DNA of 64,000 bases from Kordiimonas marina. Its GTDB lineage: Bacteria; Pseudomonadota; Alphaproteobacteria; Sphingomonadales; Kordiimonadaceae. The position numbers and the translations under genes are program-made. Each line of letters begins with the position of its first letter. The stretch's first letter is position 1. The notes beneath the pieces are model-generated. The model made no database searches. It was given only the letters and a program-made list of their open reading frames with translations, and was not told the DNA's origin. Below, one piece after another: positions 56,212-59,207 of the stretch. The stretch covers positions 178,863 through 242,862 of the forward strand of contig NZ_JAINDF010000001.1 of NCBI RefSeq assembly GCF_023006325.1, read 5' to 3'.

Positions 56212-56511
56212 GCTCTTCTCCGGATCAGGATTGGGGCCGCCTGGGGAGGCCCTTGTTCACGTTCGCCACACTGGCGCGTTCACCCTTTGTTTTCAAGTCA
56301 CGAATGCACACGGGAGCGGCGGATTAAGTGCATATAATTTAATCACTGTATATTTTTTAATCTGATAATAGAGCGCCCGCTAGGCAGCTCAATAAATGTT
56401 TTCTTTAATTTCAAGTACTTAACAAATTCATTCCAGCTGGCACACCCCTTGCTTTTTATGAGGTGCTTTTTAGAAACACGCCAAAACAAAGGCTCTCTTT
56501 TGGAGGAAACC

Positions 56512-57231
56512 ATGCCCATCAAATCTTCCCTTACGTCAAGAGTCAGATTTGCCCTTGCAGCCACGGTCGCCATGAGCGCCCTCTACGCCCCGGCCGCCAG
56601 CGCTGAAGACGACGGCCCCGTCAGCCTGTCGGCCAACGTCGCTTTCGCAACCGAATACCGCTTCCGCGGCCTGTCGCTCAGTGACCACGACCCGGCGCTG
56701 CAGGGCGGTCTCGATGTCTCGACCAAAAGCGGCTTCTATGTCGGCACCTGGGGCTCGTCGATCCAGCCTTACGGCGGATCCGAACTCGAAATGGACATCT
56801 ACGGCGGCTACAAACACGACTGGAACGGCATCACCTCGGATATCGGTGTCCTTGCCTATACCTACCCGGGGTCGAAGCACACGCATTATATTGAAGGCTA
56901 CGGCAGCTTTTCTGGCACCGCAGGCATCGTCAACTGGAAGGTTGGTGCCGCCTATGTCTGGAGCCAGGCCAACACCGGCAACCAGGACAATATCTATCTG
57001 TACCTGAACGGTGACGCGCCGATCGCCGACACGCCCTTCTCGATTGCAGGCCATATCGCTTACGAAAACGGCGCCTTCGCCGACAAGAAGTGGGACTGGA
57101 GCATGGGCGTCGCCTACGCCTACAAACAATACACGCTGTCACTCTCCTACGTAGACACCAACCTTAACGACGCCACCACGGACGGCATCGGCAAGGCCAC
57201 GGTTGTCGGGATGCTGTCAGCCAGCTTCTAA
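56512..57231 (+). CDS. TorF-family putative porin
   Basis: The 239-aa product has a classic signal peptide (cleavage after about ASA at residue 30) and then an outer-membrane beta-barrel with alternating hydrophobic residues and a C-terminal Phe. The pattern VSLSANVAFATEYRFRGLSLSDHDPALQGGLDV is typical of the TorF/TIGR02001 family. Expected in the outer membrane; substrate unknown. TGGAGG is well placed before the ATG at 56512. The upstream in-frame Met is not used. Confidence 0.9.
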   Translation: MPIKSSLTSRVRFALAATVAMSALYAPAASAEDDGPVSLSANVAFATEYRFRGLSLSDHDPALQGGLDVSTKSGFYVGTWGSSIQPYGGSELEMDIYGGYKHDWNGITSDIGVLAYTYPGSKHTHYIEGYGSFSGTAGIVNWKVGAAYVWSQANTGNQDNIYLYLNGDAPIADTPFSIAGHIAYENGAFADKKWDWSMGVAYAYKQYTLSLSYVDTNLNDATTDGIGKATVVGMLSASF

Positions 57232-57246
57232 GGACCAAATACCAAC

Positions 57247-57287
57247 CGCGTACCGGCGGTTCTCAGACACATCGCCGCCGGTACGCG
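57247..57287 (+). terminator. 13-bp hairpin after the porin gene
   Basis: A perfect stem (57247-57259 with 57275-57287) and a 15-base loop lie 15 bases past the porin stop. No strong T-run, so it may be a terminator or an mRNA-stabilising hairpin. Confidence 0.65.
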
Positions 57288-57325: not shown

Positions 57326-57356
57326 TTGACTCTCTAAAACAACATGTATTTATAAT
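57326..57356 (+). promoter_or_regulatory. Promoter-like boxes in the AT-rich block
   Basis: TTGACT (57326-57331) and a perfect TATAAT (57351-57356) are separated by 19 bases, two more than optimal. A transcript from here would run into the repeat cluster. No start codon follows the AAGGAGG at about 57405. Confidence 0.35.
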
Positions 57357-57448
57357 GTTAATGAAACAAAGACTAAGTAATATGAAGTAAATATAGAGAG
57401 AAAAAGGAGGACTGTTAGAAACAAATACTGAACCATAAATGCCATAAT

Positions 57449-57492
57449 CCTTCCCAGGTATACCCTTCCCAGGTAAAAAACCTTCCCAGGCA
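57449..57492 (+). repeat. Three tandem 12-mers of type CCTTCCCAGGTA (unit A head)
   Basis: The motif occurs at 57449-57460, 57464-57475 and 57481-57492 (the last with one change). Repeat starts are 15 and 17 bases apart. Two further copies are at 57706-57717 and 57723-57734 (one change). Confidence 0.9.
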
Positions 57493-57564
57493 TTTACGGT
57501 TCACCTATCCCTCCCTGGCTTGCCGGCACGGTGCCGACCTTCACCTTGCCGGTAAGCCATCCCA
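57461..57564. repeat. Composite repeat, copy A (about 104 bases)
   Basis: Starts with two of the 12-mers, continues to TATCCCTCCC and ends with an imperfect 12-bp inverted repeat of type GGCTTGCCGGCA / TGCCGGTAAGCC (one G-T pair). It is nearly identical to copy B over the last 58 bases, with one indel and two or three substitutions. Inside the loop GGCAC/GTGCC allows an alternative small hairpin. Confidence 0.9.
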
Positions 57565-57702
57565 GGGACCGGTCCTAAAAACCGGAAAGCGGGCACAGGT
57601 AGGGAGCTTTGAAAGAACCGATTTATTTGTTCATTCAGAGCCTGCGGTATTGGTCAATTTCGGACTAGCCAACGGCAAAATGGACGACTACCGACGGACA
57701 CT

Positions 57703-57803
57703 TACCCTTCCCAGGTAACAGACCTTCCCAGGTGTCCCGAGGTATCCCTCCCCTGGCTTACCGGCACGGTGCCGACCTTCACCTTGCCGGTAAGCCATTC
57801 CCA
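57703..57803. repeat. Composite repeat, copy B (about 101 bases)
   Basis: Same order as copy A: two 12-mers (57706, 57723), TATCCCTCCCC, then a perfect 12-bp inverted repeat (57755-57766 with 57785-57796). It starts 242 bases after copy A. Confidence 0.9.
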
Positions 57804-57824
57804 TTTCTGGGCCCCTGCAAGTAG

Positions 57825-59207
<1,383 letters not shown>

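Follow-up and report, generated by a model that had tools for sequence, protein, structure and literature searches.

A torF-linked array of stem-loops with C/U-rich loops, a candidate regulatory RNA of the genus Kordiimonas

The NfeR1/alpha-r14 RNAs of Sinorhizobium and relatives, which silence ntrBC, are built of three hairpins carrying CCUCCUCCC anti-Shine-Dalgarno (anti-SD) motifs on variable stems, and offer redundant seeds (PMC10746234, PMC3927594). NfeR1 is under positive control of LsrB and negative control of NtrC (PMC10746234). CcsR RNAs are cotranscribed with a gene of the DUF1127 type and matured by RNase E (PMC10253847, PMC8307010). The enterobacterial small RNA GlnZ originates by release from the glnA 3' UTR, that of a nitrogen-regulated mRNA, and targets sucA by one conserved seed (PMC9731577).

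The array described here follows torF, a putative porin gene, in Kordiimonas marina. It shares with NfeR1/alpha-r14 the presence of several hairpins, in which anti-SD-like motifs appear unpaired on variable stems, and the nitrogen-linked biology of those RNAs is given as common ground. It differs from them in its place behind a putative porin gene whose promoter motif is of the sigma-54 type; moreover, CCUCCUCCC is not among the C-rich words of the array (CCUUCCC, UCCCUCCCC, UCUCUCUCCCC and similar), and three hairpins with identical CCUCCUCCC motifs were not found. As in the cuckoo/CcsR RNAs of Rhodobacter, an alphaproteobacterium, tandem homologous RNA units are located downstream of a protein gene. 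In the latter the gene encodes a DUF1127 protein and is served by an RpoHI/RpoHII promoter, whereas the gene upstream of the array is a member of TIGR02001/PF09694 and no DUF1127 gene takes that place. The array RNA is proposed to derive from a transcript 3' end, like GlnZ, but it has tandem loops, which are not mentioned for GlnZ (PMC9731577). By analogy, the best reading is that the array would work like the NfeR1/alpha-r14 and cuckoo/CcsR RNAs, missing a defining feature of each. NrsZ of Pseudomonas, a sigma-54/NtrC-dependent small RNA with repeated stem-loops, may be a further likeness. The array has no match at gathering score in Rfam 15, where the sub-threshold matches looked like chance. 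A literature search, largely confined to journals readable without subscription, listed among its matches no paper on a torF-linked RNA.

Structure of the array

The window is the whole stretch of K. marina DNA that was analysed, 64,000 nt long; coordinates refer to it, and all features of the array region are on the + strand. The array is enclosed by torF (56512-57231), assigned to TIGR02001/PF09694 (Gcw_chp) above the Pfam and NCBIfam cut-offs, and by an aspC-like aminotransferase gene (58005-59207; PF00155, Pfam/NCBIfam), whose product scores 568.5 bits with its best NCBIfam model, aspartate transaminase, below the cut-off of 617. The start of torF was placed according to the SD sequence GGAGGAA (56502-56508). 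Further upstream, TGGCACACCCCTTGCT (56438-56453) is a sigma-54 (-24/-12) type promoter motif reading TGGCAC-N5-TTGCT, and is the single match to this pattern in the window. The preceding stretch (about 56330-56437) has an AT-rich motif of the type TTTAATCANTG-TTATTTTT, seen by eye also in many relatives, which may be an activator-binding site. A perfect inverted repeat folding into a 13-bp hairpin comes right after the torF stop codon (57247-57287); its loop is not C-rich, and it possibly marks a transcript end. An aspC promoter-like motif fitting a loose pattern, TTGCGG-N15-CCTAAG, is found 3' of the array (57939-57965). A scan of the + strand around the array revealed neither sigma-70-type promoters with spacers of 16-18 nor U-run terminators. 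The sequence TTGACT-N19-TATAAT, in an AT-rich stretch 5' of copy A (57326-57356), is possibly a local promoter; its spacer is too long and outside the range scanned, and by eye it is not conserved in the relative G001.

The array is made of two composite units, copy A (57429-57559) and copy B (57696-57797), with two long hairpins in all. CCTTCCCAGG is present in five exact copies, all between 57449 and 57732, with start-to-start spacings of 15 and 17 in copy A and of 17 in copy B, in agreement with the five 12-mers spaced 15-17 bases of the preliminary description. With at most one mismatch, 14 sites are found in the window against 5.15 expected, a number reached in none of 100 shuffles. Exact sites in the whole genome are 11, five at the array and six as singles elsewhere; a reversed control pattern has 5.

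In part 1 of copy A (57429-57503), three CCUUCCCAGG motifs (57449, 57464, 57481) are surrounded by an outer stem of 15 nt (57429-57443 / 57489-57503), in which a single mismatch, A-C, occurs. The anti-SD-like linker UAUCCCUCCC (57506-57515) joins it to part 2, a long hairpin with loop CCGACCUU (57516-57559), which is included in the alignment of covarying hairpins discussed below. Copy B has in part 1 (57696-57737) two CCUUCCCAGG motifs (57706, 57723) inside an 8-pair stem of the minimum-energy fold (57696-57703 / 57730-57737), the inner end of which overlaps the second motif. The linker UAUCCCUCCCC (57743-57753) holds CUCCCC, the complement of GGGGAG, and precedes the terminal long hairpin (57754-57797), marked by inverted repeat, covariation and covariance model matches. 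The long hairpins have 18-nt arms and an 8-nt loop; arms are 94% complementary in copy B, and copy A has one mismatch more, a G-T pair. The tails of the two copies form a 51-nt direct repeat, 96% identical. Directly 5' of copy A lies a purine box, AAGGAGG (57404-57410), a candidate internal partner of CUCC loops. Two composite copies had been reported already, and they are real; the units are larger than described, as the outer stems around the 12-mers had been missed. Likewise, the nearly identical tail, put at 58 bases, is found as the 51-nt repeat, and the hairpin reported as 12 bp long has 18-nt arms, not perfectly paired in copy B, the G-T pair of copy A being confirmed.

That the element is structured, rather than a product of chance, had been guessed from the hairpins, and is borne out by folding and by covariation. 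RNA folding z-scores are -8.4 for copy A, -4.2 for copy B and -6.9 for the 57395-57812 interval, and no shuffled sequence folds as well as the real one in any of the three. The strand is not told by folding energy alone, since the minus strand of copy B folds well too (z -3.9). Thirteen terminal hairpins from 12 genomes, picked as alignable from 17 typed, were aligned; G007, G009, G012 and G016 were left outside because their terminal hairpins do not align. Eight of 12 pairs are changed on both sides, a figure reached by one of 500 shuffles; 98.7% of the cells are paired, and the covariation score is 0.550 versus 0.264, with no shuffle out of 500 attaining it. Mismatches were counted at the outer 12 positions of 16 hairpins, leaving out G012, which is near-identical to G016, and keeping G007 out of register, the source of 8 of the 10 mismatches of other types. 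The tally is 12 G-U versus 1 A-C, some of the G-U cells being shared by descent. The excess of G-U over A-C indicates that the + strand is the RNA; a looser inverted-repeat scan (6 G-T versus 5 A-C) is of no help in this respect.

Stems and loops evolve differently. Comparison of K. marina (G000) with G001 shows paired changes in the copy A outer stem, most letters of the motifs being the same; the G001 copy A has two motifs, one fewer, one of them with a different ending, and the stem of copy B part 1 shows an A-U to G-C change. Across a clade of seven species identity is 0.97 in the loop, 0.82 in the outer stem and 0.60 in the inner part. C/U-rich loops are 33 of the 117 hairpin loops predicted in 17 regions, G012 again being left out, versus a mean of 12 and a maximum of 23 in 20 shuffles; by this minimum-energy criterion G000, G001 and G004 score 0. 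As judged from sequence comparison, a structured + strand RNA array is well supported, and it likely acts via its loops. Among the options initially offered for the locus, a small RNA with repeated C-rich loops fits best, and a tandem array of protein-binding sites on DNA is disfavoured by the compensatory stem changes and by the excess of G-U over A-C.

Conservation of the array and of its surroundings

At E 1e-20, torF matches are found in 18 of 19 genomes of the genus, G003 having only distant ones, located elsewhere; aspC is matched at E 1e-120 in 18 of 19, and is missing in G009. Stem-loops with C/U-rich loops occur upstream of aspC in 17 of 18 genomes, K. marina included, the exception being G004; this count, of one region per genome, was judged partly by eye, and G009 is the weakest case. 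G002 was kept out of all region counts, its torF and aspC not being adjacent. The G009 region was read from the torF side, starting 60 nt past the match, with the aspC start set by eye; the regions of G003 and G013 are the last 300 nt before aspC, and that of G001 the last 560 nt, holding copy B only. A mechanical scan for hairpins with stems of 5 bp or more and UCCC in an unpaired segment returns one or more in the same 17 regions, two or three in nine and just one in eight. The criterion is weak alone, as 44 of 772 background windows of 330 nt, taken from the two strands of the window, contain one or more such hairpins; three contain two, and one of these is the locus itself.

Arrays are mostly unalignable between lineages, and the C/U-loop theme persists. 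A DNA search at E 0.001 of 59 genomes (K. marina and 58 relatives) gave matches in four. These are K. marina itself; G001, where the two copies are joined by a third hairpin, located at a different contig's end; G008, where the hairpin is matched; and G057, where the match is of 27 nt. The C-rich word is CCUUCCC in G000, G001 and G011, CCCUCCCC or CCCUCCC in G008, G012 and G016, and UCUCUCUCCCC or near variants in G003, G006, G010, G013, G014, G015 and G018. By eye, loops within one species tend to one common word, and the word differs between lineages. Thirteen of 18 regions have a GGAG box ahead of their first C-rich motif, and in nine of these it adjoins the torF stop codon. The last bases 5' of aspC are in several relatives often CUCCCC-like, and resemble the loop word.

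Some loci have peculiarities of their own. In G001 the ends of contigs C38 and C15 (loci L023 and L020) are assembly breaks inside the repeat, and the third hairpin, GGCATACC...GGTATGCC, in which a T-A pair is swapped to A-T, adjoins torF. G018 repeats the UUCUCUCUCCCC loop in a second tandem hairpin of this locus, on a different stem (G018:C1:800627-800672, L215). In G014 torF is split into two overlapping matches in different frames (G014:C125:32806-33479; L103, L109), possibly a frameshift or an assembly error; the array is intact.

It had been stated that nothing in the flanking genes explains the repeats. This calls for amendment, as torF, with its conserved sigma-54-type motif, adjoins the array upstream in most of the genus. 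Fourteen of the 17 carriers have the gene immediately 5' of the array on one contig; in G001 torF and aspC are at the ends of different contigs, and adjacency is deduced across the break. Of the 18 loci of the genus linked to aspC, 16 have the sigma-54-type pattern (TGGCAC or TGGCAT). The exceptions, the copies next to aspC in G012 and G016, read TGGCAC-N5-ATGC by eye and fail the strict pattern, which is also absent at torF copies not linked to aspC in G002, G012, G016, G023 and G025. The rpoN gene is present in all 19 genomes of the genus. The pattern TGGCACNNNNNTTGCW has 10 sites in the K. marina genome, and the genes following two of them look flagellar by eye, so that control by nitrogen need not be assumed. 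In two other genera, three torF-aspC loci share the sigma-54-type motif and have no such array, plain terminator-like hairpins being seen there by eye. A torF copy not adjoining aspC in G025, of another genus (L137), is followed 3' by a predicted stem-loop with C-rich UUUCCCUCCC, possibly a distant counterpart of the array.

In G003 and G013 a torF remnant only is left, and the sigma-54-type motif (TGGCAT in G013) and the array are both kept. Motif and array are separated by 287 nt in G003 and 325 nt in G013, versus 823 nt in G018 and G006; the longest ORFs have 75 and 78 aa in G003 and G013, respectively, and the sequence immediately 5' of the array still aligns to the torF 3' end. Retention of array and promoter motif after the loss of most of torF is the strongest sign that the RNA may be maintained for itself.

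Alternative explanations

Inverted repeats and near-identical copies, the number of which differs among species, are features expected of a REP/MITE-like mobile or dispersed repeat, as was initially suggested. The recommended copy search, run on the K. marina genome and on those of relatives, found in the former the array locus and its own inverted halves, all other matches having E of at least 0.36, and in the latter the matches described above, both G001 copies included; plasmid and phage records gave no match at E 1e-5. A covariance model of the terminal hairpin was run on 29 genomes of the family, scoring 150 candidates per genome. The 16 sense hits with E <1e-6, in 13 genomes, are all at this locus; 13 are the sequences of the model itself, and three, from G001, are new. 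None of 10 genomes of other genera gave a match at E 0.1. Five weaker hits lie elsewhere; of these, two fall in long ORFs and one in an intergenic region. At the present search sensitivity a mobile or dispersed repeat is refuted, and we regard it as extremely improbable. A pattern scan of genome contigs returned 61 stretches; one was assessed, and is probably the record of G001. On the minus strand of another K. marina locus, L219 (about 1498-1535; G000:C19:107578-107612), an intergenic hairpin with a CCUCCCC-containing loop and a U-rich tail follows a gene that by eye looks of the hsp20 type, and is possibly a second anti-SD-loop RNA of this genome. A leader or attenuator controlling aspC in cis would account for the position of the array, 5' of aspC and on the same strand in the regions read, and conservation only upstream of aspC had been proposed as its hallmark. 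The position is as foreseen; however, the stretch from array to aspC contains the promoter-like pattern TTGCNN-N15-NNTA in 14 of the 18 regions, G003, G006, G011 and G013 lacking it. The pattern is loose, reports the shortest permitted spacer (15), and was counted without shuffle control. It seems, from these motifs, that aspC has a promoter of its own downstream of the array, the main aspC mRNA would then exclude the array, and control of aspC in cis is thus very unlikely.

Two further explanations leave the array as RNA and change its role. It could act in cis on the torF transcript, whose 3' end would combine a C-rich, G-poor Rho-utilisation site with protective hairpins, giving termination before aspC. 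Copies A and B are both richer in C than in G (55 to 28, 45 to 24), C-rich repeats are spaced 15-17 nt, the array comes after torF and ahead of a gene seemingly provided with its own promoter, and an intrinsic terminator is not reported on the + strand. Rho, however, depends on YC dimers of unfolded RNA and has no need of the covarying stems and near-invariant loop words that the array has. Moreover, G003 and G013 keep the array without most of torF, although their shorter transcript would also have to end somewhere, the three loci of other genera show plain terminator-like hairpins by eye, and a U-rich stretch follows the terminal hairpin in G006 and G013. On balance we deem such a cis element unlikely. 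Alternatively, the loops may be bound by an RNA-binding protein that recognises C/U, and the array would then be a sponge for this protein or a localisation element, multiple like loops on variable stems being typical also of sponges. The classic system is out: csrA (PF02599) is found in none of the 19 genomes of the genus, 3 of 14 control genomes being positive, and the GGA side that CsrA would need is on the minus strand, which the G-U test disfavours. A minus-strand CsrA sponge of the CsrB/RsmY type is hence rejected. Several loop words match SD complements, the word changes between lineages, and a sponge for some other protein is rather improbable.

Loop words, SD regions and proposed role

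The survey of SD zones drew on 464 kb of the K. marina genome (20 stretches plus the window), in which 345 genes were predicted mechanically. GGGGAG shows the largest hexamer excess (15 versus 0.9), followed by AGGGGA (14 versus 0.3); GGGAGG (9 versus 1.0) and GGGAAG (6 versus 1.7) are also in excess. These are the reverse complements of CUCCCC, UCCCCU, CCUCCC and CUUCCC, respectively. GGGAAGG was found twice and TGGGAA once, neither being enriched, so the main word of this species, CCUUCCCA, fits SD sequences worse than CUCCCC. The linkers and the loops of many relatives would thus fit SD sequences well, and CCUUCCC, the commonest loop here, less so. A genome count of GGGAAGGN{2,14}ATG (141 hits versus 43 for the reversed pattern) was set aside, because the reversed pattern is no fair control.

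Self-targeting through loop pairing was tried and rejected. In 15 genomes, loops pair with their own torF leader no better than with those of other species (-7.93 versus -8.39 kcal/mol, p 0.95), and the same is true of aspC leaders (p 0.25). A torF paralogue following a peptidase-like gene (L112, about 2134-2153; G000:C11:415221-415240) has the SD GGGAAGG, a 7-nt complement of the loops. This SD is absent from the six corresponding paralogues of other species, another paralogue of G002 having GGGAAG; being found only in G000 among seven corresponding paralogues, it was discarded as a target.

C/U loops resembling complements of ribosome-binding sites make the array look like a new regulatory RNA, which may silence messages by pairing. 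A torF-linked, sigma-54-driven RNA with several anti-SD loops, pairing in trans to target mRNAs, is the reading that we hold to be, if narrowly, probable. According to this proposal, the + strand would be transcribed into a structured RNA of tandem stem-loops, the 3' part of a transcript starting at the torF sigma-54 promoter; in this species a local promoter is perhaps a second source. Cleavage by an RNase would release the RNA, and an inducing signal is part of the proposal. Stems would serve as scaffolds, and the working parts would be C/U-rich motifs: CCUUCCC and UAUCCCUCCCC in this species, UCUCUCUCCCC, CCCUCCCC and further words in its relatives. With the help of Hfq, the gene of which (PF17209) is present in all 19 genomes of the genus, loops would pair to purine-rich SD regions of target mRNAs and block their translation, several loops acting as several equivalent seeds. 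Pairing of the loops with the GGAG box, where this is close to the torF stop codon or at it, could tie release of the seeds to torF translation; the box could also compete for the loops.

More tentatively, we consider it possible that the promoter now serves chiefly to make the RNA, which would be a sigma-54-controlled, porin-linked anti-SD RNA with multiple seeds; the basis is the persistence of promoter motif and array in two species in which the porin gene is mostly deleted. The seeds would be rewritten jointly, as if tracking a changing target set.

If the proposal is true, an undescribed, genus-restricted family, tied to a sigma-54-type porin promoter, would join the small class of multi-hairpin anti-SD RNAs. 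Because loops are near-fixed within a clade, stems vary and the word differs between lineages, the genus is a natural series, which could show how multi-seed regulators and their targets change together. It would also suit asking whether, as a protein gene decays, its promoter can pass to an RNA.
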